This document shows positions 12,205 to 42,658 of a DNA stretch of 64,000 bases, in pieces (position 1 is the first letter of the stretch; each line of letters opens with the position of its first letter). The stretch lies in assembly GCF_009923995.1 (NCBI RefSeq), contig NZ_RFSK01000003.1:62001-126000 (forward strand), in the 5' to 3' direction. Origin of the DNA: Janthinobacterium sp. (GTDB lineage: Bacteria; Pseudomonadota; Gammaproteobacteria; Burkholderiales; Burkholderiaceae_D). A model generated the notes under the pieces. It did not search any database and had not been told where the DNA came from. It saw only the letters and a program-made list of their open reading frames with translations. The position numbers were made by a program, and so were the translations under genes.

Positions 12205-12273
12205 AAAAACTTTACAACAACTGCGGTAACGCTGTGCCGTATCAACATGCTTGCCATGCCGACGGCTGAATCT

Positions 12274-26561: not shown

Positions 26562-26716
26562 GAGCCTGTTCCGGTAAAGGAATACATCCGCAGCAGACAG
26601 CCCCTCGGAAGCGGGTACTGCGTTGCTCGTCGTAGCCTGGCCCGCCATGCGTCCTCCTCGCGCCTTGTCCGCGCGACCGATGAGCAATCTGCTGCAGACG
26701 CTCCTGATCGGAATAG
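26562..26716. repeat. Long imperfect inverted repeat after glyA
   Basis: Starting at the glyA stop, the stretch folds back on itself: TTCCGGT near 26571 with ATCGGAA near 26706, GCAGCAGA near 26591 with TCTGCTGC near 26690, and TTGCTCGTCG near 26623 with CGATGAGCAA near 26680. The structure is about 155 bases with several mismatched bulges. It has no T-run. It may be a degenerate member of a dispersed repeat family or the 3' structure of the glyA mRNA. Confidence 0.55.
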
Positions 26717-26734
26717 TCGCTAATTATTTGTCCA

Positions 26735-26788: not shown

Positions 26789-26820
26789 GCGCCCGGAGTG
26801 ATTCGGGCGCCTTTTATTTA
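26789..26820 (+). terminator. Intrinsic terminator between glyA and nrdR
   Basis: GGCGCCCG (26789-26796) pairs with CGGGCGCC (26805-26812), followed by TTTTATTT on the plus strand. It probably ends the glyA transcript or a transcript from between the two genes. Confidence 0.85.
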
Positions 26821-26822
26821 AC

Positions 26823-26950
26823 AACACCCGACCGTACCGTCGCCAGCGGAAGGGGCGGTGGCCAGGAAGCGCAACCGCACGAAGGTGCGGACGCCGAGCC
26901 GGTGCGCATCGCAGGCCGCCTGTGCCGACGCGCAGCAGGTGTTGACTGGC
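26823..26950 (+). repeat. Dispersed ~120-nt palindromic element, copy A
   Basis: Ends CAACACC...GGTGTTG are inverted. Inside are CCGTCGCCAGCGGAAGG, GGAAGCGCAA, the small hairpin CCGCAC-GAAG-GTGCGG, GTGCGCATCGCAGGCCGCC and GACGCGCAGCAGG. These blocks recur in the same order in the copies at 36659, 39963, 41208 (inverted) and 42538. The element ends 52 bases before the nrdR start. The 441 bases between glyA and nrdR (26562-27002) hold this and the other repeats listed, and no gene. Confidence 0.8.
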
Positions 26951-27002
26951 GCTCCGAGGCGGCGATTTTCCGTAATTACTACTATAAAGTTCTATCCAGC
27001 CC

Positions 27003-27464
27003 ATGAAATGTCCATTCTGCCAGCACGGCGATACCCAGGTTCTCGATACGCGCGTATCGGAGGAAGGGGATGCCATCCGGCGCCGGCGCCGCTGCAGCAA
27101 ATGCGACAAGCGTTTCACGACCTACGAGCGCATTGAACTTATCATGCCCGCCGTCGTCAAAAAGAATGGCAGCCGGACGGAGTTCGCTGCGGATAAGTTG
27201 CGCGGCAGTTTGATGCTGGCCTTGCGCAAGCGCCCCGTCGCGGCCGCCTCCGTGGATACCGCCATCGCCTCCATCCAGGAAAAACTGCTGACGAGCGGTT
27301 TGCGCGAAGTCGATTCCGGCTATATCGGCGAACTCGTCATGCAGGAACTCAAGCGCCTGGACAAGATCGCGTATATCCGCTTCGCCTCCGTGTACAAGAA
27401 TTTCGAAGACCTGGCCGAATTCCAGGATGCGATCGCCGAAGTGGGGCAGGCGCGCAAGCCCTGA
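27003..27464 (+). CDS. nrdR: Transcriptional repressor NrdR
   Basis: A 153-residue repressor of ribonucleotide reductase genes. A zinc ribbon with Cys3, Cys6, Cys31 and Cys34 is followed by the ATP-cone domain (about 49-139) that senses ATP versus dATP. The MKCPFC start and RRRRRCSKC segment are invariant in the family. In many proteobacteria nrdR is next to ribD and follows glyA; here that order is kept but a 7.5-kb pilus cluster sits between nrdR and ribD. Confidence 0.97.
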
Positions 27465-27695
27465 AGCTCCCCGCCGTTGCCTGCCGCCAGCGGGACTGAT
27501 GGACCGTCCCGCACCACCACGCCAGCGCTTGCCTGGCAAGCCGCCTGAGCAATCCCGGCGCGTTTTTTTCTCCGCTTTTTCCTGATTTCCGCCTTTTCGC
27601 CGCGACGTTTGCGCTGCCTCATGCCCGCGTTTCGGCGCGCGCCTATCGTGTAGCTGGGCCGTGCTTCCGCGCGGCGCAATTTGCAGGAGGACGTC

Positions 27696-28286
27696 ATGCA
27701 CGGCAGTGCGCGTGGACCCATGGATGGCAGTTCCCTCGTCGAGGTGCTGGTGTCGCTGCTGCTACTGGCGCTGGGTCTGCTCGGCGCCAGCATTTTGCAG
27801 CTGACCTCCCTGCGCGCGCGCCATGAATCGGCGCTGCTGTCGGCCGCCGCGCAGCTGGCCGCCGGCATGGCCGAACGCATGCGCGCCAACAGCGCGCTCA
27901 TGGCCGGTCCCGACGCCGGCAATCCCTACCTGGGCGTGGCCTACGAAGCGGCGCCGGACGGTAGCCCTGCGCAGGATGGCGGCGCGCCCGCCTGCTTCGG
28001 TGCCGGCGCCTGCGGCGCGGCGCAGCTGGCGCAATACGATATCGCCGAATGGAAGCAGCAACTGCAGGCGGGCTTGCCCGGCGCCCGCCTGCACATCTGC
28101 CGCGACATGGCGGCGTGGAATGCCGCCGCCCAGGGGCCGGACTGGGCTTGCAGCGGCGGCAAGGGGGCGCCCGTCGTCATCAAGCTGGGCTGGCGCGGCC
28201 GCCAGCCCGACGGCCAGGCCGCCTCGAACGGGGCGGGCGAAGCACCTCCCAAACTGCTGCTGCAGCTGGGCGGAGGCGGTCCATGA
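27696..28286 (+). CDS. pilV: Type IV pilus minor pilin PilV
   Basis: A 196-residue pseudopilin. After a short leader ending GPMDG, the hydrophobic helix SSLVEVLVSLLLLALGLLG begins with Glu at +5, the signal for prepilin peptidase cleavage and methylation. LQLTSLRARHESALLSAAAQLA is the usual PilV continuation. With PilW, PilX and PilE it forms the priming tip complex that carries PilY1. AGGAGG lies seven bases before the ATG at 27696; an in-frame TTG at 27681 precedes that site. The last codons overlap pilW (ATGA). Confidence 0.9.
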   Translation: MHGSARGPMDGSSLVEVLVSLLLLALGLLGASILQLTSLRARHESALLSAAAQLAAGMAERMRANSALMAGPDAGNPYLGVAYEAAPDGSPAQDGGAPACFGAGACGAAQLAQYDIAEWKQQLQAGLPGARLHICRDMAAWNAAAQGPDWACSGGKGAPVVIKLGWRGRQPDGQAASNGAGEAPPKLLLQLGGGGP

Positions 28287-29263
28287 ACGGCATGCGGGGC
28301 GGGGGAGCCAGCAGGCGCCGGGGCATGGGTCTGGTTGAATTGCTGGTGGCCATGGCGCTTGGCGCCTTGCTGCTGCTCGCCGCCAGCGCCGTGCTGCTGG
28401 CGGCGAGCAGCAGTTATGCGGAGCAGTCGGCCGGCGCGCGCCTGGACGACAACGGCCGCTATGCGCTCGACGCCATCGCCCGCGCCGTGCGCCAGACGGC
28501 ATACGTGAACTGGGACGGCGATGCCGCGCCGCTGTTTCACGCCAGCGAAGACAGCGCCAATATCGCCGGGCTCGACGCGCATGGCCTGGGCAAGAACAGC
28601 GAGGGCATCAGCCAGGCCTTGCCCGACGTCATGCATGGCAGCGACGTGCTGGCCTTGCGCTATGACGGTGCCGGCGCGGACGAGGGCGGCGACGGTTCCG
28701 TCCTCAATTGCGCCGGCTTCGGCGTGGGCGCCGCGCACACCGAGGCGCAGCGGGGCTGGAGCATCTTCTACGTGGCGCAGGGGGCCGATGGCGAGGGCGA
28801 ATTGCGCTGCAAATACCGTGGCGCGAACGGCTGGGGCGCGGATGCCATCATCCGCGGCGTCGACGGCTTCCAGGTGCTGTATGGCCTCGATACGGATACG
28901 CCGCCCGATGGCGTGGCCAACCGGTACGTCAACGCCAGCTGGCTCGATGCCGCCGACGCGGCGCTGCTGCTGGCGGGCGAGACGGCGGCCGAACGGCAGC
29001 GCGACTTTCACCGCCGCACGCACTGGAAGCGCATCGCCGGCGTGCGCGTGGCGCTGCTGCTGCATGGAGAAGCGGGCGCGGCGGGCAAGCTTGAGGACAT
29101 GGGGCCGGCGCAGTTCGACCTGTTCGGCAAGGCGTATGCCGAGGCGCAGGGCGCCGGCGACCCGGGCGCGCGCGTGCTGCGGACGGCATTTCCGCCCGCC
29201 CTGCAGGGACGGCGGCGGCAGATCGTGCAAACGAGCATCATGCTGCGCAACGGGCCGGAATAG
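28283..29263 (+). CDS. pilW: Type IV pilus minor pilin PilW
   Basis: A 326-residue pseudopilin. The cleavage context RRRG before MGLVELLVAMALGALLLLA places Glu at +5. The remainder is a large globular domain with ARLDDNGRYALDAIARAVRQ, the usual PilW segment after the helix. The ATG overlaps the pilV stop and has GGAGGCGG upstream, indicating translational coupling. The frame is open for 234 bases upstream but that part overlaps pilV and is not counted. Confidence 0.9.
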   Translation: MNGMRGGGASRRRGMGLVELLVAMALGALLLLAASAVLLAASSSYAEQSAGARLDDNGRYALDAIARAVRQTAYVNWDGDAAPLFHASEDSANIAGLDAHGLGKNSEGISQALPDVMHGSDVLALRYDGAGADEGGDGSVLNCAGFGVGAAHTEAQRGWSIFYVAQGADGEGELRCKYRGANGWGADAIIRGVDGFQVLYGLDTDTPPDGVANRYVNASWLDAADAALLLAGETAAERQRDFHRRTHWKRIAGVRVALLLHGEAGAAGKLEDMGPAQFDLFGKAYAEAQGAGDPGARVLRTAFPPALQGRRRQIVQTSIMLRNGPE

Positions 29264-29266
29264 GCG

Positions 29267-29917
29267 ATGCGTGCCCCTGTCCGCCGACGGGCCGTGTCCG
29301 TGTACATGTGTGGCGCGACCCTCGTGTACGTGCTGTGCCTGCTGGTCGTGATCCTGCTGCTGGGCGTGTCGGCGGCGCGGATGGCCTTGCAGGCAGAGAA
29401 GGCGGCGCGCGGCGCGCGTGACCGGCATGTCGCCTTCCAGGCGGCGGAGGAGGCATTGATGGATGCGCAGAACGATATCGAAGGCTTGCCCGGCGCACCC
29501 GGACGCAGCGGCCTGTTCGCGCCGGGCAGTGCGGCGGGCTTCGCGCAGGCTTGCGGCCAGGGGGATGAACTGGGCTTGTGCCTGCCTGCGGCCAAGGGCG
29601 CGCCGGCCCTGTGGCTGACCATGGAGTTGGATGCGGCCGAATCGGCCGGCGGCGCCAGCCGCTCGGTGCCATATGGCCAGTTTACGGGCGCGGCCATGCA
29701 GACGGGGCAGGGCTTGCTGCCCGCGCGCCGGCCCCGCTACATCATCGAATTGCTGCCATTTCATGCGCCGGGCGAAGAGGCGGGGACGGCGGCCGGCAGT
29801 CTCGCCACGGAAAACTATGTGTACCGCATCACGGCCATCGGTTTCGGCGCGCAGGACGGCACGCAGGTGGTGCTGCAAAGCTACTACCGCAAGCAGGCGG
29901 CCGGGGCGGTGCCATGA
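29267..29917 (+). CDS. pilX: Type IV pilus assembly protein PilX
   Basis: A 216-residue minor pilin. A basic start is followed by the hydrophobic helix LVYVLCLLVVILLLGVSAAR and the PilX-type continuation ALQAEKAARGARDRHVAFQAAEEAL. As is common in PilX, there is no Glu at +5 after the presumed cleavage glycine. It starts three bases after pilW and its stop overlaps pilY1, so it belongs to the same operon. Confidence 0.86.
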   Translation: MRAPVRRRAVSVYMCGATLVYVLCLLVVILLLGVSAARMALQAEKAARGARDRHVAFQAAEEALMDAQNDIEGLPGAPGRSGLFAPGSAAGFAQACGQGDELGLCLPAAKGAPALWLTMELDAAESAGGASRSVPYGQFTGAAMQTGQGLLPARRPRYIIELLPFHAPGEEAGTAAGSLATENYVYRITAIGFGAQDGTQVVLQSYYRKQAAGAVP

Positions 29918-32900
29918 GGGTGCCGCCCTCCGCCGTGCGGCGCGCCGGCCGGGCCTGGCTGGCGCTGCCGCTGTTGTGCCTGGGCTGCCTGGCCGGCCCC
30001 GCGCTGCCGGCCGCCACGCCCACCGTGGCCCTGGAGCGTGCCGACGTGGGTTTGCGCGGCGCGCGCGTGCCGCCGAACCTGCTGCTCAACCTGTCGCTCA
30101 CGCATGCGGCGGCCGCGGCGGCCCATGGCGGCGACTATGCGCCGCAGCGCGAGTACGCGGGCTACTTTCATGCGCGCATGTGCTACAGCTATCCCTATCT
30201 CGGCAAGGGCGGTGCCCTGCAGCCCGACTTGCGCGCAGCGACCGCTTACTTCTCCGTGCTGAAGCAGGCCGACGCCCTGCATGGCTGTGGCGGGGATAGT
30301 TTCAGCGGCAACTTTCTCAACTGGGCCAGCACCAGCATGCTCGACCTCGTCCGTTATGCCTTGACGGGCGGCGACCGCGTCATCGACGAAGTGCGCAGGA
30401 CGGTGCTGCAGCGCGCCTATCTGCCCGACGGCGGCGCCGGACCCGATTTTTTCGCCCATCCCGTGTTTTTCCCGCGCAAGGTGCTGCGCGAGGGCGTCGC
30501 GGCCGCGACGCCATTTGCGCTGGCGCAATTGTCCATCGTTTCCTGCCGTAACCGCCTGCTGTTCGGCGATGGCAGCTTGCCTCCGGGCGGCAGCTGTGAT
30601 GACCCCGGCGCCGCCGGCGCGCACGGCGTGTTCCTGGCGCGCGTGCGGGTATGCGACGCGGACGAGGGACCGCTGCGCGACGACTTGTGCCTGGCGTATG
30701 GCAAGAACTACAAGCCGGCGGGCGCCATCCAGCGCCATGGCGGCAGGGTGCGCGTGGGCGTGTTTGGGCACTTGAACGGCAAGCCGGCCGGCACGGCCCA
30801 GGCATATGGCGGCGTGCTGCGCACCCCGCTGCACCACGCGGGAGCGCAGCGCTGGATGGCGCCCGACTTTGTGCCGCAAGACAATGCCGATGCCGAATGG
30901 AATCCCGTCAATGGCGTGTATGCGGCGCATGGCGGCGGGGTGACCGCTTACATCAATGGCCTGGGCCGCGGCAATGCCGGGCGTCCCGGCGCCTATGCGG
31001 GGGCGGCGCCGCTGGCCGAACTGCTGTACGAATCGCTGCGCTACCTGCAGGGACGGCAGGCCAGCCCCGTGGTGCCGCCGGCGACGTCCCCGCCTGCCAT
31101 GGACGAGGGCTTGCCAGTCGTCACACTGTGGAGCGACCCGCAGGCGGCCAGCTGCCAGCGCCAGGTGGTCGTCAGCCTCGGCGATGCGGGCCTGGCGGGC
31201 GACCGCTACGTGCCCGGCAACGTGCCCGTCCGCCCCGCGCCTGGCGGCGGCAACGACCGTGCGCGCGCCGTGGACGGATTTGTGCCGCCGCCGCTGGACG
31301 CGATGGCCTGGACGCGGGCCGTGGGCAAGCTGGAAAGCGACGGCGGCCAGGGCAATCCAGCACCGCTTCCCGCCCTGGCCGGACTGGAACTGCAGGCCGA
31401 AGCCACGGGCGGCGCCAGCTACCATGCGGCCGGGCTGGCGTACTGGTCGCACGTGCAAGCCCTGCGTCCCGGCCGGAGCACCGGCGCGCCGACGGTCGAC
31501 CATTACGCGGGCGACTTGCGCCAGGGCGATCCGGCGGCCGGGCCGGACGTCACGCCCTTGCTGCTGGCAGCCAAGTATGGCGGTTTCCAGGATGCCAATG
31601 GCGACGCCAATCCCTTCCGGAGCGCCACCGGCAGCGCGCTGGCGGAATGGAGCATGGACGGGCGCCGCCCCGCCCATTACTTGCCCGGCAGCGATCCGCC
31701 CGCCCTCGTCGCGGGCTTGCGTGCCGCCTTCGCGGCGGCGGACCAGGGCACGGATCCGCTGGCGCTGCCGGGTCCTGCGCTGGTGGCGCTGGCCAGCGGC
31801 ACGGAAGAGGCGTACTGGTTCCACACGCAGCTGCGCCTGGCCGACGGCGGCATGAGCCTGTCGCGCAGCGGGCTGGCCGTCGGCGGCGAGGGCGGCCTGG
31901 CCATCGGCAAGACGTGGTGGCAAACGGGGGAAGTGGCGGCAGCGGCGCCTGCGGTCCTGCGTCCCGTGTACACGCCCGGCGCCGGGGGCGCCCTGGTGCC
32001 GTTGGCGTGGCAAGCCCTGTCGGCGACGCAGCGGGTAGCGTTCGACGGCGGCGATGGCCAGGGCGAGCGGCGGCTGGCGTATCTGCTGGGCAAGCGGACG
32101 GACGAAGCGGGCCAGCCGGGCGGCGTCCTGCGGCGCCGCTCGGGCAGCCTGGGCGCGGCCCCGTATGGCAACCTCGTCTACGTGGGCGCGCCCGCGCCAG
32201 GCATGCCCGGCGTCGGCTATGGCGCGCACCGCAAGGCCCTGCAACAGCGGCGAAAAATGCTGTACCTGGGCGCCAATGACGGCTTGCTGCACGCCTTCGA
32301 TGCGCGCACGGGGAATGAACTGTTTGGCTATCTGCCGCAAGCCCTGCTGCACGGCGCGGCGGCGGCTGCAAGCACTCACTACAGCCCCGGGCCCTTGCTG
32401 GACGGGGCCGCCGCCACGGCGGAAGTCCTGGCCGCAGGGCGCTGGAAGACGGTGCTGGCATCCGGCATGGGCGGCGGGGCGCAGGGCGTGTTTGCGCTCG
32501 ACATCACCGACCCGGCCCGCTTTGCGCAGGATGGGGCACTGTGGGAGTTTACGGACCGCGACGACAAGCTCATGGGTAACGTGCGCGCGCCGCCCGGCTT
32601 TGCCCGCATCAATATGGGCGGCAAGGATGGCGCCGTGGCCTATCGCGACTTTGCCGTGGTCAGCAGCGGCTACAACAACTACGCTGACGATGGCAAGGAA
32701 ACGACGGCCCCCGCATCGGCCGCCGCCATCTTCCTGCTGGCGCTGGACAAGCCGCCCGGCGCGCCCTGGCTGCTGGGCAGCAATTATTTCCGCCTGAAAG
32801 TGCCCGTGGCCAACAGTGGCACCAACAGCGGCGCAGGCGATGGTGGCCATGACACCGATGCCGCGCCGCTTGCCCACGCGCTGGGGCCGCCCGCGCCGGT

Positions 32901-33783
32901 GCCGGGAACGGATGGCGCGCTGGCCTGGATGTATGCGGGCGACTTGCAGGGCAATCTCTGGCGCTTCGAGATGGCTGGCGGTCCGCCGTGGAAGGATGGC
33001 GTGGGACGCAAGCTGATTTTCGTCGCGCGCGACGGGCAGGGACGGCGCCAGCCTATCACGCAGCAGGTCAAGGTGGCTTACGCGCCGGGCGGCGGTTATC
33101 TGCTGCTGTTCGGCACGGGCAAGCTGGTCGAGGCGGCCGATGCCTGGCCCGGCGCCTTCCTGTCGCAGGCGTTTTATGCCGTGCATGACGATGGGCAGGA
33201 CGGGTCGCCCACGCTGGGCAGGGCCGACCTGGCGCCGCGCCGGCTGGATGCGGCGGACGGGGGCGTGCGCGTCGATGGCGCCGAGGTGCGCTACACGGGT
33301 AGCGGGGCCATGCGCGGCTGGTATGTCGATTTCCTTGATGTGGCGCAAACGGGCGAACGCAGCATCACCAGCCCCGTGCTGGCGGCGGGACGGGTGATCT
33401 TCAATACCGTCCTGCCTGGGCGCGATGCTTGCGCCAGGCCGGCCACGCGCCTGTATGCGCTCGACGTGCTGAGCGGCTTTGCCGCCGACGATGGCGGCCT
33501 CGTGCAGGCTGGAGCCGTGACGGGGCGCTTGCTCGATGGCCTGGCGCGGGCGCCGCCCCAGGTGCTGGAATTGGGCAGCAGCGTGGGTGCCGTCGCGCCG
33601 ACGGGCCGCGCCGGGGAGCGCAAGACGCTGGCCGTAGTGCAGCCCGGTCTGCCTGGCGCGGCGGCCGGGCCGCTGCCCGGCTTCAAGTTCGTCAGTGCGC
33701 CGCTGCCCGCCCGGCGCCTCAGCTGGCGGGAAGTGGCGAACTGGCGCGAACTGCATGAAGCGGCGCAGAAGAAAGCGCCGTGA
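29914..33783 (+). CDS. pilY1: Type IV pilus tip adhesin/assembly factor PilY1
   Basis: A 1289-residue secreted protein with a signal peptide (about residues 1-33, ending LPAAT). The N-terminal part is variable and has PPNLLLNLSLTHAA and YAGYFHARMCYSYPY typical of this family; the C-terminal part (about 770-1200) is the PilY1 beta-propeller, marked by KMLYLGANDGLLHAFDARTG, AGDLQGNLWRFEM and FGTGKLVEA. PilY1 sits at the pilus tip, promotes extension, and can act in adhesion and surface sensing. I could not identify a clear EF-hand-like calcium loop by eye. The start overlaps the pilX stop by four bases. Confidence 0.93.
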   Translation: MRVPPSAVRRAGRAWLALPLLCLGCLAGPALPAATPTVALERADVGLRGARVPPNLLLNLSLTHAAAAAAHGGDYAPQREYAGYFHARMCYSYPYLGKGGALQPDLRAATAYFSVLKQADALHGCGGDSFSGNFLNWASTSMLDLVRYALTGGDRVIDEVRRTVLQRAYLPDGGAGPDFFAHPVFFPRKVLREGVAAATPFALAQLSIVSCRNRLLFGDGSLPPGGSCDDPGAAGAHGVFLARVRVCDADEGPLRDDLCLAYGKNYKPAGAIQRHGGRVRVGVFGHLNGKPAGTAQAYGGVLRTPLHHAGAQRWMAPDFVPQDNADAEWNPVNGVYAAHGGGVTAYINGLGRGNAGRPGAYAGAAPLAELLYESLRYLQGRQASPVVPPATSPPAMDEGLPVVTLWSDPQAASCQRQVVVSLGDAGLAGDRYVPGNVPVRPAPGGGNDRARAVDGFVPPPLDAMAWTRAVGKLESDGGQGNPAPLPALAGLELQAEATGGASYHAAGLAYWSHVQALRPGRSTGAPTVDHYAGDLRQGDPAAGPDVTPLLLAAKYGGFQDANGDANPFRSATGSALAEWSMDGRRPAHYLPGSDPPALVAGLRAAFAAADQGTDPLALPGPALVALASGTEEAYWFHTQLRLADGGMSLSRSGLAVGGEGGLAIGKTWWQTGEVAAAAPAVLRPVYTPGAGGALVPLAWQALSATQRVAFDGGDGQGERRLAYLLGKRTDEAGQPGGVLRRRSGSLGAAPYGNLVYVGAPAPGMPGVGYGAHRKALQQRRKMLYLGANDGLLHAFDARTGNELFGYLPQALLHGAAAAASTHYSPGPLLDGAAATAEVLAAGRWKTVLASGMGGGAQGVFALDITDPARFAQDGALWEFTDRDDKLMGNVRAPPGFARINMGGKDGAVAYRDFAVVSSGYNNYADDGKETTAPASAAAIFLLALDKPPGAPWLLGSNYFRLKVPVANSGTNSGAGDGGHDTDAAPLAHALGPPAPVPGTDGALAWMYAGDLQGNLWRFEMAGGPPWKDGVGRKLIFVARDGQGRRQPITQQVKVAYAPGGGYLLLFGTGKLVEAADAWPGAFLSQAFYAVHDDGQDGSPTLGRADLAPRRLDAADGGVRVDGAEVRYTGSGAMRGWYVDFLDVAQTGERSITSPVLAAGRVIFNTVLPGRDACARPATRLYALDVLSGFAADDGGLVQAGAVTGRLLDGLARAPPQVLELGSSVGAVAPTGRAGERKTLAVVQPGLPGAAAGPLPGFKFVSAPLPARRLSWREVANWRELHEAAQKKAP

Positions 33784-34143
33784 AAGTACCGTGGACCGCT
33801 GCGGCTGCATGAGGGTACGCAAGGGGCACAGGTGCGCAGGCGCGTGGCCGAGGGGCGCAGCGTGCCGCTGCGGGTGAAGCGGGCAGCAGGCGTCCCGCGC
33901 GGCAAACGGATGGGAGGGCGGTATATGCGCACGACATGGCGGAGGATGATGGCATGCTGGTGCGGCCGCGCGTGGCAGTCCCGGCCGGCGCGCGGGCAGG
34001 CGCATGCGCTGGCGTACAGGCAGGTGCGCAGGCCGCCGTACCGGCGGCCCGGGCAATGCTGGCAATGCCGGCAACCCCGGCGGCAGCTTGCGTTGCCGCG
34101 CCCGACCAGTCGCGCCGGCCCGCCCGCCGGTGGCGCTTCCGCC
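33784..34143 (+). other. Low-complexity stretch between pilY1 and the pilE core
   Basis: About 360 bases that are GC-rich and contain tandem-like units, including GCAATGCTG, GCAATGCCG, GCAACCCCG near 34054-34082. The pilE frame is open through it, which would give a Cys/Arg/Pro-rich leader from an ATG at 33925 (behind GGAGGGCGG) if used. Another frame gives an Ala-rich peptide. I cannot support a separate gene. Confidence 0.45.
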
Positions 34144-34584
34144 ATGCCGGGCTTCAGCCTGATCGAACTGCTGGTCGCGCTGGCCATCGCGGGTCTGCTG
34201 CTGGCGCTGGCCGTGCCCGCCTATCATGGCCATGTCGTGCGGGCCAAGCGGGTGCAGGGCCAGGCAAGCCTGCTGCGGCTGATGCAGCAGCAGGAGCGCT
34301 ATTACTCGCAAAACAACCGGTATCTGGCGTTTTCCGCCGCGTCGGCCCCGCTGCAGGCGCAGCTGTTTCCCTGGTGGTCCGGCGACGGGCCGGCCGCCAG
34401 CGCCTATGAAATCGAGGCGCTGGCCTGTCCGGCGTCGACGATCGGGCAATGCGTGCTGCTGCGCGCCTTGCCGGGCACGCCGAAGGTGGACGTCCGCTTT
34501 CACGATCCCGAGTGCGGCGTCCTGTCCCTGGACAGCACGGGCCAGCGCGGCAGCAGTGGCCCGGCCAGTCATTGCTGGCCCTAG
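34144..34584 (+). CDS. pilE: Type IV minor pilin PilE
   Basis: A pilin whose helix starts MPG then FSLIELLVALAIAGLLLALA, with Phe +1 and Glu +5 after the cleavage glycine, followed by PAYHGHVVRAKRVQGQASLL and QQQERYYSQNNRYLAF, typical of PilE-type minor pilins. The C-terminal half has two cysteine pairs that could form the D-loop. From ATG 34144 it has 146 residues, a normal length, but the leader would be only three residues. From ATG 33925, which has a good ribosome site, the leader would be 76 residues and unlike any standard one. The start is therefore unresolved. Confidence 0.82.
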   Translation: MPGFSLIELLVALAIAGLLLALAVPAYHGHVVRAKRVQGQASLLRLMQQQERYYSQNNRYLAFSAASAPLQAQLFPWWSGDGPAASAYEIEALACPASTIGQCVLLRALPGTPKVDVRFHDPECGVLSLDSTGQRGSSGPASHCWP

Positions 34585-34586
34585 CC

Positions 34587-35237: not shown

Positions 35238-35529
35238 GGTGGCCCCGGTGAACCCTGCGTGGCGCTTCGTGCGGGTTGATGTGCATCAAACTGATATGCA
35301 TCAAACCTGTGGCGATGGCGATGGCGATGGCCGCTGCCGCTGCCATGCCGTCCCGGCGCAGGCAGCCGGGCTTTTTTGACGGGCGTCCTGGCCGCACCGG
35401 GCAAGGCCATGGCTTGCCGAGGCGGTGGCCGGCGGCGTCCGCGCGCCGGTTGCGGCGACGCCGGCAGGGATGCGGGACCGGTTGACAGAGCGCGCCGCGC
35501 GAGCCGTGGCGCTGCGCCCGCCATTTTTA

Positions 35530-36657
35530 ATGACTCACCTTCAAGCGATAAAGCCTGTGGAAATACTCAATGATATCGATGGCATGCGCCTGGCGCTGGA
35601 ATGGGCGGCGCGGGGCTTGTACACGACCTCGCCCAATCCCCGCATCGGCTGCGTGATCGTCAGGGATGGCCAGGTGATCGGCGCCGGCGTGACGCAGGCG
35701 GCGGGGCAGGATCATGCCGAAGTGCAGGCGCTGGCGAATGCGGCCGCGCGCGGCAACGACGTGCGCGGCGCCACGGCCTACGTCACCCTGGAGCCGTGCA
35801 ATCACCATGGCCGCACGCCGCCGTGCTCGGATGCGCTCGTGCGCGCGGGGCTGGGCCGCGTCGTGGCCGCCATGACGGACCCGAACCCGCTGGTGGCGGG
35901 GCAGGGGCTGGCCAAGCTGGAAGCGGCCGGCATCGCCGTCACGACGGGCGTGCTGGCGGACGAGGCATATGAAATGAATATCGGCTTCTTTTCGCGCATG
36001 CAGCGCGGCAAGCCGTGGGTGCGCATGAAAACGGCGGCCAGCCTGGACGGCATGACGGCCCTGCACAATGGCCAGAGCCAGTGGATCACGGGGCCGCAGG
36101 CGCGCGCCGACGGCCACGCCTGGCGCGCGCGCGCCTGCGCCATCCTGACGGGCATCGGCACGGTCAAGGCGGACGATCCGCAACTGAACGTGCGCGCCGT
36201 CGAGACACCGCGCCAGCCGCACCGCATCGTCATCGACAGCCGCCTCGACATCAGCCCCGATGCGCGCATCCTGCAAGGGGGCGGCACGTGGATCGTGGCG
36301 GCCGTCGCCAACCCGGAGAAGCAGGCGCAGCTGCAGGCGCTGGGCGCGGAAGTCATCCTGTTGCCGAACGCGGCCGGTAAGGTGGACCTGGCCGCGCTGA
36401 TGCTGGAACTGGGACGCCGGCAAATCAATGAAGTCCACGTCGAGGCCGGCTCCAAGCTGAACGGCTCGCTGATCCGCGAAGGCTGCGTCGATGAATTGCT
36501 CGTGTACCTGGCGCCTACCTTGCTGGGCGACGCGCAAGGCATGTTTGCCTTGCCGGCATTGACGGATCTCAAGCAGCAGCGGACTTTGCAATTTCACCAG
36601 GTTCAGCAAGTGGGCGAAGATTTGCGTATCCTTGCAAGATTCGCCCAGCGCAATTAA
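35530..36657 (+). CDS. ribD: Bifunctional riboflavin biosynthesis protein RibD
   Basis: A 375-residue enzyme for the second and third steps of riboflavin synthesis. The N-terminal deaminase domain has the zinc motif HAE at 62-64 with Cys90 and Cys99 in PCNHHGRTPPC; the C-terminal reductase domain (about 155-370) has MKTAASLDGMTAL and HVEAGSKLNGSLI. The ATG at 35530 lacks a clear ribosome site and a later ATG at 35584 (MRLALEWAARG) is also possible. The 292 bases after fimT contain only a TTGATG/CATCAA palindrome and low-complexity GCGATG repeats; no FMN riboswitch is seen. Confidence 0.95.
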   Translation: MTHLQAIKPVEILNDIDGMRLALEWAARGLYTTSPNPRIGCVIVRDGQVIGAGVTQAAGQDHAEVQALANAAARGNDVRGATAYVTLEPCNHHGRTPPCSDALVRAGLGRVVAAMTDPNPLVAGQGLAKLEAAGIAVTTGVLADEAYEMNIGFFSRMQRGKPWVRMKTAASLDGMTALHNGQSQWITGPQARADGHAWRARACAILTGIGTVKADDPQLNVRAVETPRQPHRIVIDSRLDISPDARILQGGGTWIVAAVANPEKQAQLQALGAEVILLPNAAGKVDLAALMLELGRRQINEVHVEAGSKLNGSLIREGCVDELLVYLAPTLLGDAQGMFALPALTDLKQQRTLQFHQVQQVGEDLRILARFAQRN

Positions 36658-36658
36658 A

Positions 36659-36802
36659 ACGCCTAACAAAACCGTAGCGAGCGGAAGGAAGGCCCGGCGC
36701 CCCCCTTGGCCCGAGCAGCGCAGCAGTACGGAGTACGGGGTCGCCGCGGCAGTGAGCATCGCCGGCCGCAAATGACGGCGCACAGCAGGTTTTGACAGGC
36801 GT
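36659..36802 (+). repeat. Dispersed ~120-nt palindromic element, copy B
   Basis: Terminal inverted repeats of 15 bases (ACGCCTAACAAAACC and GGTTTTGACAGGCGT, 13 of 15 pairing). Inside are CGTAGCGAGCGGAAGG, the small GTAC-GGA-GTAC palindrome and GCGCACAGCAGG. It lies between ribD and ribE, ending 36 bases before the ribE start. It is longer and more diverged than copies A, C and D. Confidence 0.8.
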
Positions 36803-36838
36803 TTTTACTACTTTCATAATTTTTATAAGGTTAGCTCC

Positions 36839-37477
36839 ATGTTTACAGGAATTGTTGCCGCCATTGGCAAAATTGAAACCGTGCAGCCGCTCGACGGCGG
36901 CCTCGACGCAGGCGTGCGCCTGACCATCCATGCGGGCGGCTTGCCGCTGGCCGATGTGGCCCTGGGCGATTCGATCGCCATCAATGGCGCCTGCATGACG
37001 GTGGTGGAAAAGTCGGACACGGGCTTTGCCGTCGATGTCTCGCGCGAAAGCCTCAATTGCACCGTGGGCCTCGACACGCCCACGGAAGTGAACCTGGAAA
37101 AAGCCCTGACCCTGGCCGAGCGCCTGGGCGGCCACCTCGTGTCGGGCCACGTCGACGGCCTGGGCATCGTGCGCAAGTTCGAAGCCGTGGGCGAATCGTG
37201 GGAACTGGTCATCGAAGCGCCGCACGCGCTGGCGAAATACCTGGCCTTCAAGGGTTCCGTCGTCGTCAATGGCGTGTCGCTGACCGTCAACCGCGTGGAA
37301 GACCTGGGTGCGGGCGCCATCGATGGCTGCCGCTTCTCGATCAACCTGATCCCGCACACGATCGCCATGACGACCCTGAAGCACCTGACGGTCGGTGGCA
37401 AGGTCAACCTGGAGATCGACCTGATCGCCCGCTATGTCGAGCGCATGCTGTCGCTCGACAGCAAGGCTGCCGCCTAA
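36839..37477 (+). CDS. ribE: Riboflavin synthase, alpha chain
   Basis: A 212-residue enzyme that dismutates two 6,7-dimethyl-8-ribityllumazine molecules to riboflavin. It has the invariant N-terminus MFTGIV and two tandem lumazine-binding domains (about 1-96 and 97-195), each with a GDSIAINGACMTV-like or GSVVVNGVSLTVN-like strand pattern. It is in the classical order after ribD. A palindromic element fills most of the space upstream. Confidence 0.97.
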   Translation: MFTGIVAAIGKIETVQPLDGGLDAGVRLTIHAGGLPLADVALGDSIAINGACMTVVEKSDTGFAVDVSRESLNCTVGLDTPTEVNLEKALTLAERLGGHLVSGHVDGLGIVRKFEAVGESWELVIEAPHALAKYLAFKGSVVVNGVSLTVNRVEDLGAGAIDGCRFSINLIPHTIAMTTLKHLTVGGKVNLEIDLIARYVERMLSLDSKAAA

Positions 37478-37634
37478 GACGCGCTTGCCGCACCCCGCCG
37501 GACCGCCCCGCATGCGCATGCGGCGGGCGCTCCGGCGCATTCCGTCCCGATCGTGACGAGTCGCCAGATTCCAAGCGTGTGTTGCTTTTCCCCGGGACGC
37601 GCATACTATGAGTTTTCCGCAGTGGAGGAAAACC

Positions 37635-39029
37635 ATGGAGCCGATTTCGCGCGCCACCTTGCCCAATGTCATACCGGCCACGCCCCGCGTGGGCGAAACG
37701 GCGCCGCTGTCGCCAGCCGCGCCCGTACCCGCTGCCGGTGCCGCGGCTGCCATTCCCCTGCTGTCGTCGACCCAGGTCGACCTCTCCCCGCTGGGCCAGT
37801 TTTTGTCCGGCGTGGCCCTGTCGCGCCGGCAACTGCTCGCCTTGCAGGGCGCCACGGAGCAGGCTGGCGCGGCCGCTGTCCCCGTGAATGTCCATGACGA
37901 CTTGCTGGCGCTGGCGCGGCAGCTGACGGCATCGTTCGCCCAGCTGCAAACGAGCGGCATCGATGCCAGCCAGCTGGCGTCGGCGGGCGACACGCCGGGC
38001 AGCCTGGCGCAGCGCTACGACCTGTTGTCGGGCGACGGCACGACGGGCGCGGCGGCCGCACTGGCGCAGGACGGCAGCCTGCTGACGCAGGCGGGACTGG
38101 CCCGCATCGGCGTCGACTTGCGCAACGAGGACGTGGATGCCGCCACCTTGCAGGCGGCATATGCGGCCGACAGCGCTGCTACCCTGGATGCCTTGCAGCA
38201 GGGAACGGACGTGCTGGTGCAGGTGGGGGCCGTGCTGGCCCGGCAGCAAGGCGTGCCGGTGGCGGCCGCTGTCGAAGCGGACCTGGCCGGCGGGACTGTC
38301 CCTGCTGCTGCCGCGCTGGCAGGGCAGGTGGCGGCCGTGGCGCAAGGGGAGCCGCCGCAAACGGCGGCTATTGCACAGAGGCAACTCGAACTGCAGCAGC
38401 AACTGGAAGCGGAAGAGCTGAACCTGGACTTGCAGGGGCTGCGGCCCCAGGCGCCGGCACGGCAGGCGGCCGATGCGCCGGAGTCGCTGCAGGCGCAGCA
38501 GGCGGACAGCCAGCGCGCGGATGCCCTGCGCCAGGGCAGTGCCGCCCTCGATGCGGACCTGCAGGCCCGGCAGCAGGAAGCGGCGCGGGTGGAAGAGTTG
38601 CGGCAAGGACAAGTGCAGCAGATGAGCTTGCAGCAGCAGGCGCAGGCGGCCGCAGATGATGCGGCACGGGCGCAACTGGCGGCCAGCGACGCGCAACTGG
38701 CGGCCCAGGCGGCGGCCGACCGGGCGCAATCCTTGGCACGCGCAGCGCAGGTGCAGGCCGATGCGGGCGTGGCGGACACTGCGCAAGCCCAGCTGGCGCA
38801 GCAAAATGCGCAGGCGCAAGAACTGGCCGCGCAAAACGCGGGCCAGGCCGTGCCGCCGCCGTCGTCGCAAGACCCGTCCGTGGCGGCCGCCATCGCCGCC
38901 TATAACCTGAACAATGCAGCCCTGAATCCCGGCCTGATGAACCGCCCCCTGCCGGCCAGCGCCTCGCAAGCGCCCCTGGTGGCGCCCGTCGCGCCGGTGG
39001 AACCCGTCAAGCCCGTGCCGAAGATCTAG
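37635..39029 (+). CDS. Ala/Gln-rich coiled-coil protein, function unknown
   Basis: A 464-residue protein with GGAGGAAAA six bases before the ATG at 37635, which argues that it is expressed. No signal peptide or membrane helix is seen. Residues about 90-230 form Ala/Leu-rich helices; about 250-410 is a long Gln/Ala/Leu/Arg coiled coil (units such as QLELQQQLEAEELNLDLQGL and ARAQLAASDAQLAAQAAADR); the ends are Pro/Ala/Val-rich and disordered-looking. I find no cysteine or tryptophan. I recognise no family. It interrupts the riboflavin genes but shares no obvious function with them. Confidence 0.75.
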   Translation: MEPISRATLPNVIPATPRVGETAPLSPAAPVPAAGAAAAIPLLSSTQVDLSPLGQFLSGVALSRRQLLALQGATEQAGAAAVPVNVHDDLLALARQLTASFAQLQTSGIDASQLASAGDTPGSLAQRYDLLSGDGTTGAAAALAQDGSLLTQAGLARIGVDLRNEDVDAATLQAAYAADSAATLDALQQGTDVLVQVGAVLARQQGVPVAAAVEADLAGGTVPAAAALAGQVAAVAQGEPPQTAAIAQRQLELQQQLEAEELNLDLQGLRPQAPARQAADAPESLQAQQADSQRADALRQGSAALDADLQARQQEAARVEELRQGQVQQMSLQQQAQAAADDAARAQLAASDAQLAAQAAADRAQSLARAAQVQADAGVADTAQAQLAQQNAQAQELAAQNAGQAVPPPSSQDPSVAAAIAAYNLNNAALNPGLMNRPLPASASQAPLVAPVAPVEPVKPVPKI

Positions 39030-39208
39030 AACGCTGGGCATAAGCTGCCGCGCGCCGCCACGGGCTGCCAGCCATCGTCACTGCCCCGGCATGCCTTGGC
39101 GTGCCTGTGCCAGGTCCGGTTTCCCGGCCAGCGGCGGTGCCGGGCCCGCCAGGGCCGGCCCTGCCACGGGCGGCATGCCCGCCGGCACAGGCCGGTGGCG
39201 GGGGACCG

Positions 39209-39634
39209 TCACGGCAGCAGGGTGGCGTCCAGCGTGATATTTGCTTTCAGTAATTTCGACACGGGGCAGCCGGCCTTGGCCTTGCCCGTGAGTTCCTCGA
39301 ACTTCGCCTGGTCGGCGCCGGGAATCTTCGCCTTCAGGGTCAGGTGGACGGCCGTGATGGCGAAACCGTCATCGACCTTGTCGAGGGTCACGTCGGCCGT
39401 CGTTTCCATCTTTTCCGCCGTCAGGCCCGCTTCGCCGAGGATCAGCGACAGGGCCATGGTGAAGCAGCCCGCGTGGGCAGCGCCGATCAGTTCCTCGGGA
39501 TTGGTGCCCGGCTTGCCTTCGAAGCGGCTGGCAAAGCCGTAGGGATACTCCTGCAAGGCGCCGCTGCGCGTGCTGATGGCGCCCTTGCCATCCTTGATGC
39601 CGCCTGACCAGATGGCCGATCCGTTGGTTTTCAT
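39209..39634 (-). CDS. osmC: OsmC-family peroxiredoxin
   Basis: A 141-residue protein with the two reactive cysteines of the family, Cys57 in GAAHAGCFTM and Cys123 in KAGCPVSKLL. The GSAIWSGGIKDGKG start is that of OsmC rather than Ohr. OsmC proteins reduce organic hydroperoxides in the cytoplasm and are often induced by osmotic or stationary-phase stress. It is on the opposite strand from the rib genes and probably has its own promoter in the 463 bases upstream. Confidence 0.92.
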   Translation of the reverse strand: MKTNGSAIWSGGIKDGKGAISTRSGALQEYPYGFASRFEGKPGTNPEELIGAAHAGCFTMALSLILGEAGLTAEKMETTADVTLDKVDDGFAITAVHLTLKAKIPGADQAKFEELTGKAKAGCPVSKLLKANITLDATLLP

Positions 39635-39962
39635 GCTGCCGCTCCTGTATGGGGATAGTGCGAAACATAAGAAAACGCCCGCTGCGGCGGGAACCGCGGG
39701 GCGCGGAGAATGACTCTGTGTGCTGCCCCGCCCATCTTATGCTCTTCGCAAGGCGGGCGGCGCGCGTTTTGCCGCTGCCGTTTGCGCTGGATCGAGGAAT
39801 CGGCGTTTTGTGGCCCGGGGGCGGTGTCTGTGTGGCGGCGCTGTCTTATTTCAGGTCTGCAAGCGCTAAATCCTTTAAAATAGCAGGTTATAAGAAAATT
39901 CCCGGAAATTCGCGGAATATTCGCACGCGATGTTTCAGTTTCAGTTTTTAGTTTCATTAACA
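39635..39962. other. Intergenic region between osmC and ribB
   Basis: No gene seen. It holds the promoter side of osmC (minus strand) and, from about 39840 to 39960, an AT-richer stretch likely to carry the ribB promoter, followed by palindromic element copy C. I looked for the conserved segments of an FMN riboswitch, which often precedes ribB in proteobacteria, and do not find them. Confidence 0.5.
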
Positions 39963-40081
39963 ACGCCCGGCAACACCGTCGCGAGCGGCAGGGGGGAGGT
40001 GGCTGAGAAGCGCAAGCGTACGCAGGTACGGTGCGCATCGCACGCCGCCTGTCCCGACGCGCAGCAGCTTGTGCCAGGCGT
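39963..40081 (+). repeat. Dispersed ~120-nt palindromic element, copy C
   Basis: Ends ACGCCCGGCA and TGCCAGGCGT are inverted (9 of 10 pairing). Inside: CCGTCGCGAGCGGCAGG, GAGAAGCGCAAGCGTACG-CAGGTACGGTGCGCATCGCA, and GACGCGCAGCAG, in the same order as copies A and D. The element ends 16 bases before the ribB start codon, so it must be in the ribB leader or overlap its promoter. Confidence 0.85.
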
Positions 40082-40097
40082 CCTCAGAGGATGAATA

Positions 40098-41219
40098 ATG
40101 TCAATATCCAGCACCGAAGAGATCGTCGCTGAACTGCGCGCCGGCCGCATGGTGATACTGGTCGATGAAGAAGACCGGGAAAATGAAGGCGATCTGGTGC
40201 TTGCCGCCGATTTCGTGACGCCGGAAGCCATCAATTTCATGATCACGCATGCGCGTGGCCTGGTCTGCCTGACCCTGACGGAAGAGCGTTGCGACGAGCT
40301 GAACCTGTCGATGATGACGTCGCGCAACGGCACGGCCTATGGCACCAACTTCACCGTCTCCATCGAAGCGGCCGAAGGCGTGACGACGGGCATTTCCGCC
40401 GCCGACCGCGCCAAGACCATCCAGGTGGCCGTGGCCAAGGGCACGCAGCCCAGCGATATCGTCCAGCCCGGCCATATCTTCCCCCTGAAAGCGCAAAAGG
40501 GCGGCGTGCTGATGCGCGCAGGCCATACGGAAGCCGGCTGCGACCTGACGGCCATGGCCGGCTTGACGCCCGCGTCCGTGATTTGCGAAATCATGAAGGA
40601 TGACGGCACCATGGCGCGCCTGCCGGACTTGCTGGTGTTTGCTGAGCAGCATGGACTGAAGATCGGCACGATTGCCGACCTGATCCATTACCGCAGCCAG
40701 ACGGAGTCCCTGGTCGAGCGCGTTGCAGAACGTACCCTGCACACGGCGCACGGCGAATTCCGCCTGATCGCCTTCCGCGACAAGCCCAGTGCGTCGGCCC
40801 ACCTGGCCCTCGTGCATGGCGACCTGGCTCCCGGCCTGGAAGCGCTGGTGCGCGTGCACCAGCCCGTTTCCCTGCTGGACGTGCTGGAAAGCGAAGCGAC
40901 CACCCACTCGTGGACGGTGGCCGCCTCGATGGCCGCCATCAAGCAGGCCGAGCGCGGCGTGATGGTCTTGCTGAACTGTGGCGAGACGTCGAGCGAGCTG
41001 TTTGCCCAGTTCGCCGCGCTGGACACGCCGCAAGCCAAGCCGAAAGGCCGCGCCGCCAGCATGGACCTGCGCAGCTACGGCATCGGCGCGCAAATCCTGC
41101 GCGACCTGGGCGTAAGCAAGATGCAATTGCTGGCCAGCCCGCGCAAGATGCCGTCGATGGTCGGTTTCGACCTGGAAGTCACGGGTTTTCAGTGCCATCC
41201 GGGCCAGACGCCTGACTAA
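40098..41219 (+). CDS. ribB: 3,4-dihydroxy-2-butanone-4-phosphate synthase with degenerate GTP cyclohydrolase II domain
   Basis: A 373-residue RibBA-like protein. The N-terminal domain (about 1-205) has the full DHBP synthase signature: [29 protein letters not shown], and [16 protein letters not shown]. The C-terminal domain (about 210-373) is related to GTP cyclohydrolase II but lacks the zinc-binding cysteine cluster (normally C-x10-C-x-C in a CLTGD...RCDCG context); the equivalent region reads [20 protein letters not shown]. Proteins of this RibBX kind are known to make only DHBP, so a separate RibA is expected. AGAGGATGAATA precedes the ATG. Its final codons lie inside palindromic element D. 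Confidence 0.94.
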
Positions 41220-41325
41220 ATCTACTGCGCGTCGCGATTTGCGGCCTGTGATGCTCACTGTACCTTCGTACAGTTGCGCTTCTCGACCACAACTCACTGC
41301 CGCTCGCTACGATTTTGTCAGGCGT
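41208..41325 (-). repeat. Dispersed ~120-nt palindromic element, copy D (inverted)
   Basis: Terminal inverted repeats ACGCCTGACTAAATC and GATTTTGTCAGGCGT pair at 14 of 15 positions. Read on the minus strand it contains CGTAGCGAGCGGCAG, GAGAAGCGCAACTGTACG-AAGGTACAGTGAGCATCACAGGCCGC, and GACGCGCAGTAG. The central CTGTAC-CTTC-GTACAG is a hairpin. Its left end overlaps the last four codons of ribB, including the TAA, and its right end is 66 bases before ribH. Confidence 0.88.
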
Positions 41326-41391
41326 CAACGTAGAGTAAACGATGGCGGCATGTGCGTGCCGCCCTGAACCACCAGATTAAAGAGGCATATG

Positions 41392-41874
41392 ATGAGCGTA
41401 GGAACGTATGAAACCAATTTTGCCGGCGAAGGTTTGCGCGTCGGTATCGTCCAGGCACGATTCAATGAAATCGTCGGTGGTGGCTTGCTGTCGGCATGCC
41501 TGGAAGAGTTGAGCAAGCTGGGCGTGGCCGATGAAGATATCCTGCACGTGACCGTGCCGGGCGCCCTGGAAATCCCACTGATTCTGCAAAAAATGGCGGA
41601 AACCGAGCAATTCGACGCCCTGATCGCACTGGGCGCCGTGATTCGCGGTGAAACCTACCACTTCGAGCTGGTATCGAACGAATCGGGCGCGGGCATCACG
41701 CGCGTCGGTCTCGATTACGGCATCCCCGTCGCCAACGCCGTGTTGACGACTGAAAACGACGAGCAGGCGGAAGTGCGCATGCTCGTCAAGGGAGCCGAAG
41801 CGGCACGCGTGGCAGTGGAAATGGCCAATCTGGCGCAAGCGCTGGAAGAGTTGCAAGACACAGACGAGGATTGA
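41392..41874 (+). CDS. ribH: 6,7-dimethyl-8-ribityllumazine synthase
   Basis: A 160-residue enzyme that condenses DHBP with 5-amino-6-ribitylaminouracil. Motifs: [13 protein letters not shown] at the N-terminus, [12 protein letters not shown] and [14 protein letters not shown], with the catalytic histidine in YHFE. An Asp/Glu-rich tail follows. Two ATGs (41389, 41392) are available; the second has better spacing from AGAGG. It is followed after 91 bases by nusB. Confidence 0.96.
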
Positions 41875-41965
41875 TCGTGCTTGCGCCGCAGTGTGCTGCC
41901 TGGCAGCGCGCCGCGGTATTCGTCACTATTTGCAGTAAATACGTATTTAAGAACAGGTAACAATC

Positions 41966-42436
41966 ATGACTGAGAAAAATTTGCTCGCCAATCCCAGCAA
42001 GAACCGCACGCCGCGTCACCGCGCGCGCGAGTTTGCGCTGCAGGGCTTGTACCAGTGGCTGCTGAACAATGAAGACGCGACCACCGTCGTGAACAATATT
42101 CGCGCCGCGCATGGCTTCGACAAGGCCGATGGCGATCATTTCACGGTGCTGCTGTACGGCGCCATCAAGGACTCGCTGGCGCTGCGCGACAGCATGGCTC
42201 CCTTGATCGACCGCAATATCGCGGAACTGTCGCCCATCGAACACGGCATCCTGCTGATCGGCGCATTCGAGCTGAAGAACAACATGGAAATCCCGTACCG
42301 CGTCGTCATCAACGAAGCGGTCGAGCTGGCCAAGTCGTTCGGCGGCATCGATGGCCACAAGTACGTGAATGGCGTGCTGGACAAGCTGGCAGTGAAATTC
42401 CGCGAGGAAGAAGTCAACGCCAGCAAGCGCAAGTAA
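41966..42436 (+). CDS. nusB: Transcription antitermination protein NusB
   Basis: A 156-residue all-helical RNA-binding protein that works with NusE (S10) at boxA in rRNA antitermination. The RHRAREFALQGLYQW start, IDRNIAELSPIEHGILLIGA and EIPYRVVINEAVELAKSFGG segments are family hallmarks. ribH-nusB is a widely conserved pair. An intrinsic terminator follows 44 bases after the stop. Confidence 0.97.
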   Translation: MTEKNLLANPSKNRTPRHRAREFALQGLYQWLLNNEDATTVVNNIRAAHGFDKADGDHFTVLLYGAIKDSLALRDSMAPLIDRNIAELSPIEHGILLIGAFELKNNMEIPYRVVINEAVELAKSFGGIDGHKYVNGVLDKLAVKFREEEVNASKRK

Positions 42437-42479
42437 GATAGCAGCTTATCCTGCGGCGCAGGCCGCAATGGATGTAAAA

Positions 42480-42509
42480 AGGGCAGACTGAAAAGTCTGC
42501 CCTTTTTGC
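42480..42509. terminator. Intrinsic terminator after nusB (works in both directions)
   Basis: GGGCAGACT pairs with AGTCTGCCC around a GAAA loop, with A-rich sequence before and TTTTT after, so a U-run would be made on either strand. It separates nusB from the convergent lytic transglycosylase gene. Confidence 0.93.
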
Positions 42510-42537
42510 TGTCGGAGTGATGTGCATTAATGCATCG

Positions 42538-42655
42538 GCGCCTGTTCAAACCGTAGCGAGCAAGCTCGATATCGGGTTGAGTAACGCAGCTGTACTGGAG
42601 TACAGCGAGTAACGCCGACCCGAGAGCGGGCTGCGCAGCAGGTTTGAAGAGCGCG
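42538..42655 (+). repeat. Dispersed ~120-nt palindromic element, copy E
   Basis: Starts GCGCCTGTTCAAACC and ends GGTTTGAAGAGCGC, pairing best over the inner eight bases. Contains CCGTAGCGAGC, a perfect 16-base hairpin CTGTACT-GG-AGTACAG at 42590-42605, and GCGCAGCAGG. It lies between the nusB terminator and the end of the transglycosylase gene, touching the latter's stop. Its middle differs from A, C and D but the end blocks are the same. Confidence 0.75.
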
Positions 42656-42658
42656 CTA

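Follow-up and report, generated by a model that had tools for sequence, protein, structure and literature searches.

Introduction

Small palindromic repeats are common in bacteria. The ERIC sequences of enterobacteria are mobile repeats of ~127 bp with inverted ends, dispersed over intergenic sites, with a target duplication and a transcript that forms a stable stem-loop; their effect on upstream mRNA depends on orientation (PMC2229807; here and below, what we cite from individual papers refers to the consulted parts of each). The same source describes YPAL/RU-2 of Yersinia, a 168-bp palindrome that is mobile as judged from filled and empty sites and whose targets lie at or beside a dyad symmetry, as well as the RUP and Correia/NEMIS elements, which are non-autonomous, ~107-155 bp long and have inverted ends and duplications. 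Nearness to gene ends is known for repetitive extragenic palindromes (REPs), which lie near the 3′ ends of upstream genes and whose GTAG termini often supply a TAG stop (PMC3733652). In E. coli, REPs within 15 nucleotides (nt) of a stop codon are reported to stall ribosomes (cited in PMC12306157). Here we analyze a family of imperfect palindromes, with a core of 118 nt, that occurs in five copies (A to E) in a 64,000-nt stretch of a Janthinobacterium draft genome. This stretch, referred to as the window, corresponds to positions 62001-126000 of contig C67 in genome G000 (6.18 Mb, 154 contigs).

The family works like ERIC and the miniature inverted-repeat transposable elements (MITEs), and is new in sequence, target and placement, having no match by name or in Rfam. 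It resembles ERIC/IRU/RU-1 in size, inverted ends, dispersal, intergenic sites and target duplication, but is set apart from it, by description rather than by sequence, in that ERIC has TA at its termini, as opposed to TNA flanks here, and other hosts (PMC2229807). ERIC, in turn, differs in the consulted account from the present family with its optional 13-nt arm inserts and its sharp spacing from stop codons. YPAL has duplications of 3-26 bp and internal inverted repeats, whereas the family has 3-bp TNA duplications and terminal inverted repeats. RUP and Correia/NEMIS share its general build but have TA termini, and RUP has a proposed IS630 partner; no partner was found for this family. Finally, the GTAG/CGTC REPs and the REPINs, which are associated with REP-associated tyrosine transposases (RAYTs), are likewise palindromic and close to gene 3′ ends (PMC3733652), but are built from units of 20-40 bp whose end tag is unpaired, whereas the family has a single unit of 118 nt whose outer stem is paired.

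A literature search by title and abstract start, with subscription journals mostly outside it, found no published name or description of the family. The consulted parts of PMC3733652 make no mention of Janthinobacterium, Herbaspirillum, Collimonas or Ralstonia, those of PMC12306157 none of Janthinobacterium, Massilia, Herbaspirillum or Collimonas, and those of PMC6337395 hold nothing bearing on this palindrome family.

Results

A dispersed family of palindromes

The five copies were aligned and more were gathered by BLAST (the best 40 of 98 candidates were scored); a covariance model, R1, was then built on a 33-copy alignment that includes copies A to D and leaves out copy E. In the window, R1 recovers the five copies where an earlier note on this DNA had placed them, with E-values from 2.7e-30 to 7e-13. 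Because copy E (7.7e-20) was outside the training set, its recovery is independent. The only other window match below an E-value of 0.2 is copy D again, on the opposite strand. The earlier note had found no copy outside a 16-kb interval, which is correct for the window; the genome, however, holds about 115 sites. That is, R1 gives 127 matches at E<=0.01 in the whole genome (150 candidates were scored, and the weak tail may be incomplete), which reduce to 115 sites, some of them shortened, once eight opposite-strand duplicates and four weak matches are removed. Confinement to the 16-kb interval is thus ruled out by the dispersed copies. The copies cluster, with 17 adjacent pairs at <=3 kb versus a mean of 6.2 when positions are drawn at random without regard to genes or contig ends. 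For placement, 109 of the 115 sites were extracted with their flanks.

The covariance-model search proposed in the earlier note also finds the family across related genomes: R1 matches at E<=1e-6 occur in 138 of 245 sampled genomes of the bacterial family, and in 32 of 44 genera. The best 14 candidates per genome were scored in this sample, so copy numbers saturate. A pattern scan of named genomes yielded, among the matches listed, mainly Janthinobacterium, but also Massilia, Pseudoduganella, Herbaspirillum, Collimonas, Ralstonia and metagenome bins labelled Zoogloea and Hylemonella. Carriage by plasmids or phages was rejected, as a blastn search with copy D (E<=1e-5) gave no match in 72,556 plasmid and 50,697 phage records. 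A known RNA was rejected too, there being no Rfam match at gathering score across the five copies; the best weak match, at copy D, is sX9, with 18.6 bits against a threshold of 44 (E=0.21).

Position relative to stop codons

The regular feature of the family is its distance to a gene stop, not to a start codon. With gene ends defined by a home-made codon model, trained on 219 long open reading frames (ORFs) of two relatives, 105 of the 109 copies examined could be assigned, and in 89 of these the gene on the GGCGT-ending (3′) side of the element runs toward the element. The 3′ side lies 0-8 nt from the gene end in 80 of these 105 copies; 57 of the 80 have a literal stop codon (TAG 22, TAA 21, TGA 14), exactly 2 nt away in 28. 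By contrast, the opposite side of the element is within 8 nt of a facing gene end in 8 of 107 copies. Gaps between convergent genes are informative since either side could adjoin a stop, and there the 3′ side is within 8 nt of a gene end in 33 of 35 cases (25 with a literal stop) versus 5 of 35 for the other side. The element is therefore placed with its 3′ side against a gene 3′ end, most often 2 nt from the stop.

Two null expectations were used. Random intergenic placement puts an element near a gene end in 91 of 2380 trials, and 6.4% of intergenic TNA site-orientation combinations fall within 6 nt of one (14.3% in convergent gaps). Plain tolerance of intergenic insertion as the cause of the spacing is ruled out by both nulls together with the convergent gaps. 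For a REP-like repeat used for comparison, the two sides are near a stop in 3 of 29 and in 5 of 29 cases. At named loci, near-stop placement of the family is found in 46 of 71 cases in Janthinobacterium and 8 of 15 in other genera; in segments from four relatives, where the limit was widened to -15 to 8, the figure is 16 of 24. These sets are not fully independent, since the same model or pattern was used to find them and some orthologous sites occur in more than one of them.

TAG accounts for 22 of the 57 literal stops, versus a share of 0.164 for the genes called in the window and in the four relatives' segments (P 5e-5, uncorrected). Conversion of the host stop to TAG by insertion is not established; it is the reading of four sites examined by eye (copy E, C107:36595, C120:9181 and L225 in G256), together with this TAG excess.

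The genes next to the element are diverse. Among the flanking ORF fragments (141 scanned of 190 above score), the commonest Pfam family, ABC_tran, appears in four, and no transposase is among the 25 best of the 153 Pfam families in these fragments.

Insertion and decay at orthologous sites

The earlier note had proposed a search for orthologous empty sites, and comparison with congeners indeed reveals filled and empty sites, which show both gain and loss of the element. The cleanest filled and empty pairs differ by the core plus 7 nt, namely at copy B (flanks TTA/TTA), at copy C (TAA/TAA in loci L178 and L182), at L136 (TAA/TAA; the empty sites have TGA) and at L269 (TAA/TGA). At C111:77404 (TTA/TTA) the difference is 6 nt beyond the core, with spacers of 3 and 0 nt instead of 2 and 2; for copy A and C111:77404 the gain beyond the core is thus 6-7 nt. 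Equal TNA copies on both sides are seen at B, C, L136 and C111:77404. Across 193 copies, TNA is present at -5..-3 in 78 and at +3..+5 in 63, as compared with 0-20 at the other offsets tested, a count made by offset after the motif had been picked on inspection of the flanks. The TNA flanks, 2 nt outside each end, can thus be read as a 3-bp target duplication around a unit of 2+118+2 nt, which would mean a gain of ~125 bp per insertion.

Losses include remnants of ~36-50 nt as well as an ACGTC scar, and some copies are reduced to mini-hairpins. At one further site with an element near a stop (C67:23334 in G000), an unrelated REP-like array, GTAGGTCGG...CCGACA, is found instead in G048, G256, G254 and G257, so that one 3′-end site accepts different hairpins.

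The element as a folded unit

The core folds as a single long hairpin with conserved mismatches. Its length is 117-119 nt in 69 of 109 copies, 129-132 nt in 18 and 142-145 nt in 6; in the longer copies (129-145 nt), the left arm contains an insert of ~13 nt of the GGCTCGGCGCCCC type, or the right arm contains a near reverse complement of it, or, as in copy B, both inserts are present. In the 33-copy alignment, 95.8% of cells are paired and two-sided changes occur at 19 of 39 pairs, amounting to 103 two-sided-change cells versus 27.9 in shuffles; this control gives no probability, the copies being related and the structure derived from the same copies. The inverted terminal repeats form a 13-pair outer helix, with 92.5% of cells paired and two-sided changes at 10 pairs. 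The motif order described from the window holds across the 33 copies, as does the variable yet paired hairpin at the apex; the earlier note had made covariation of this middle pairing one test of its proposal. A GTAG/GTCG/ATAG motif lies 15 nt inside, behind paired stem; the left arm has it as GTAG or GTCG in most of the aligned copies, although it is not invariant. No terminal GTAG or CGTC tag free of pairing was seen in the aligned copies.

In the end stem, changes are compensatory, which suggests that a folded strand is recognized rather than a fixed double-stranded end. Template switching from arm to arm in palindromes could also create compensatory changes without selection. As RNA, copies A and B over their whole length (element strand) fold no better than shuffled sequences (z of -0.13 and -0.80); C, D and E give z of -3.5, -7.9 and -6.2. 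On the forward strand, G-T combinations occupy 92 cells and A-C combinations 13, mostly in five columns (12 versus 8 in the outer helix); this asymmetry is weak evidence, as the structure was chosen on the same strand.

To follow changes at resident sites, 35 orthologous copies at 11 sites were compared. Of the single changes, 15 led to a wobble pair, 13 replaced a wobble by another standard pair and 24 broke the pair; two double changes keep the pair and one breaks it. By our own estimate, and with small numbers, pair breaking is about at its neutral share, so that it is probably the requirements of mobility that maintain the structure. Selection for structure, as suggested in the earlier note, is upheld between copies by the covariation, but not at resident sites, where pairs break about as we would expect without selection.

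Candidates for a mobilizing enzyme

Y1_Tnp genes number 63 in 26 genomes of the genus, two of them in the genome studied, and are present in all 26. Linkage of the element to these Y1 transposases was rejected on 31 of the 63 listed loci. The possibility that this genome hides an autonomous element with matching ends was rejected after scans for end matches, one of which listed the best 100 of 106 places. Of the 41 exact matches to the right end, two lie outside R1 matches: one is a remnant of 41 nt, and at the other no element is present.

The window copies and their neighbors

The window locus was compared with 19 congener loci, of which the comparable subset differs by site. At each of the five sites (Table 1) the element is missing from some congeners.

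Table 1. Copies of the palindrome and adjacent genes, in window coordinates.
Feature	Position	Strand	Context or domain
Copy A	26824..26952	+	between glyA and nrdR; ~12-nt insert in 3′ arm
nrdR	27003..27464	+	Pfam NrdR zinc ribbon and ATP-cone
ribD	35425..36657	+	Pfam RibD_C
Copy B	36659..36802	+	between ribD and ribE; an insert in each arm
ribE	36839..37477	+	Pfam Lum_binding
Copy C	39963..40081	+	upstream of ribBA
ribBA	40098..41219	+	Pfam DHBP_synthase and GTP_cyclohydro2
Copy D	41208..41325	-	between ribBA and ribH
ribH	41389..41874	+	Pfam DMRL_synthase
nusB	41966..42436	+	Pfam NusB
Copy E	42538..42656	+	between nusB and convergent SLT-domain gene
SLT-domain gene, stop facing copy E	42659..43576	-	Pfam SLT

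Copy A is present in the window and absent from all 16 comparable congeners; at the positions of the target duplication it has TAA on the left (26819-26821) and CGA on the right (26955-26957). Copy B is seen in the window only (14 comparable congeners), where the spacer between ribD and ribE measures 181 nt versus 9-63 nt in the 14 congeners (26-33 nt in 12 of them). It is flanked by TTA at 36654-36656 and again at 36805-36807, which we read as the target duplication, and the ribD stop codon (36655-36657) lies 1 nt before its start, i.e., on the left side, opposite to the usual orientation. Copy C has an intact orthologue in seven congeners and a remnant in L190; its own flanks are TAA (39958-39960) and TCA (40084-40086), as against TAA/TAA in the orthologues at L178 and L182. 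The ribBA stop codon (TAA, 41217-41219) falls within copy D, of which four congeners carry the orthologue, L182 and L190 a remnant of 36 or 44 nt, and L180 and L191 the sequence ACGTC. Copy E is 2 nt from the stop of the SLT-domain gene (TAG, reading CTA on the + strand, 42659-42661) and has an orthologue in L190 and a partial deletion in L181.

Other features of the window were observed as well. The spacer between ribH and nusB (window equivalent 41875-41965, 91 nt) is 188-202 nt long and of other sequence in six congeners (L188-L193); these long spacers begin GCCATGGCTGCGTTGCAAGGCCTCGCCGTAC... or CCCATAGCTGCGTTGC... and resemble another small repeat family. A segment of ~160 nt 3′ of glyA (26562-26725) is shared by the window, L181 and L189, while in 14 other comparable congeners the spacer is only 124-143 nt. 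Upstream of glyA is a ZMP/ZTP riboswitch (25076-25202; Rfam RF01750, 55.8 bits). On the minus strand, 12132-12349 and 19066-19303 contain two close pairs, i.e., four tRNA matches, with equal scores.

Discussion

Taken together, we consider it quite probable that these copies are a family of non-autonomous mobile palindromes, usually located in a fixed orientation directly after unrelated genes, and that they do not define a regulon. In this view they resemble a parasite of the genome that settles at an uncommon target, and not a switch shared by vitamin and nucleotide genes. The MITE-like nature that the earlier note had envisaged is borne out by the dispersal, the filled and empty sites, the TNA flanks and the inverted-repeat ends. 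In the mechanism we propose, the 118-nt core with ~2 nt on each side, which folds as one long hairpin with conserved mismatches, would be moved by an enzyme supplied in trans. For this enzyme, the fold of the strand probably matters more than any fixed sequence at the ends, as the end-stem sequences vary while the pairing and the internal mismatches persist. Some cue probably directs insertion to gene 3′ ends, and any effect on the upstream mRNA, with the hairpin behind a terminating ribosome, would be a side effect. In its most specific form, in which an enzyme reading the folded antisense strand, perhaps with a cue from transcription or translation termination, directs the hairpin in one orientation and with ~2-nt precision to host stops, the proposal is tentative. 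The attC sites of integrons directly follow stop codons, and it is their antisense strand, in folded form, that is active; the likeness to the present family is an analogy, for which copies were read by eye only.

Several observations weigh against this interpretation. The placement rule is broken by 25 of 105 copies, including A, B and C of the window; 23 of the 80 copies at 0-8 nt lack a literal stop, with only a frame open to the element edge; and the gene ends come from our own codon model rather than from curated annotation. As regards the target duplication, several rows of filled and empty sites are not clean (gaps of -12 to +17), a scan of the flanks with all k-mers gave no clear duplication, trimers beside the stop match in 4 of 80 cases (3.55 expected), and the central base is equal in 13 of 27 TNA pairs (7.9 expected), although such poor agreement may be what is expected of old copies. 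As regards the enzyme, none that would mobilize the element was found: R1 finds no convincing element at the 31 of 63 Y1 loci examined (best E 0.024; the other 32 were not fetched), and the 61 matches to the left end with <=1 mismatch all lie within the genome-wide R1 matches, i.e., this genome has no unpaired left end. Finally, 4.2% of unpaired sites but 2.5% of paired sites differ from the majority at their locus, which can be read as constraint, and the placement may reflect retention by selection rather than aimed insertion.

What other kinds of element could account for the data? Insertion sequences of the IS1031 group of IS5 make 3-bp TNA duplications. The family could be a MITE in the classical sense, a shortened derivative of an insertion sequence with a DDE transposase that makes such duplications, and the TNA flanks, the inverted-repeat ends and the small size would all fit. 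We regard this as rather unlikely, in that a fixed repeat for transposase binding would not be expected to show the varied end sequences and compensatory changes seen here, and no longer element with the same left end occurs in this genome; no search was aimed at DDE transposase genes. A REPIN-type element, moved by a RAYT (a HUH transposase) and with a GTAG-like motif inside the outer stem, is a doubtful candidate. A 3-bp duplication is not typical of that class, the motif is 15 nt inside, behind paired stem, and is not invariant, and the element was found at none of the 31 Y1 loci examined of the 63 listed, which sets it apart from REPs and REPINs. Points in its favor are that most aligned copies have GTAG/GTCG in their left arm, that structure is conserved along with its mismatches, that 26 of 26 genomes searched have Y1_Tnp genes, and that placement at 3′ ends is reported for REPs (PMC3733652).

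The remaining alternatives assign a function to the hairpin. It could land widely and survive only directly behind stops and in one orientation, as a hairpin of the 3′ untranslated region that stabilizes mRNA, promotes termination or adjusts translation. The tight spacing and orientation and the slower change of paired than of unpaired sites are in line with this, as are the stalling of ribosomes reported for E. coli REPs <=15 nt from a stop (PMC12306157) and the orientation-dependent effect of ERIC on upstream mRNA (PMC2229807). Against it, the 24 pair-breaking and 15 to-wobble single changes are about the neutral expectation by our own estimate, several sites have lost their copies or reduced them to remnants, the neighbors have no common function, and the strand that scores better runs antisense to the gene upstream; such a function therefore seems unlikely. 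A shared mRNA leader or riboregulator linking the rib, nrdR and nusB genes, the second proposal of the earlier note, is very improbable. Copies A to D do end about 16-66 nt before a start codon, as that note reported, but the ~115 sites lie beside diverse, unrelated genes, copy D is inverted, each site is empty in some congeners, and Rfam offers nothing beyond the weak match at copy D.

For mobile palindromes in general, this family shows that they can be reduced to mini-hairpins. Its sharp geometry, i.e., the orientation, the 2-nt spacing and the TNA flanks, combined with filled and empty sites in relatives, makes it testable whether such elements are aimed at gene ends or are the survivors of wider insertion. 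The family may also serve for strain typing in Janthinobacterium.

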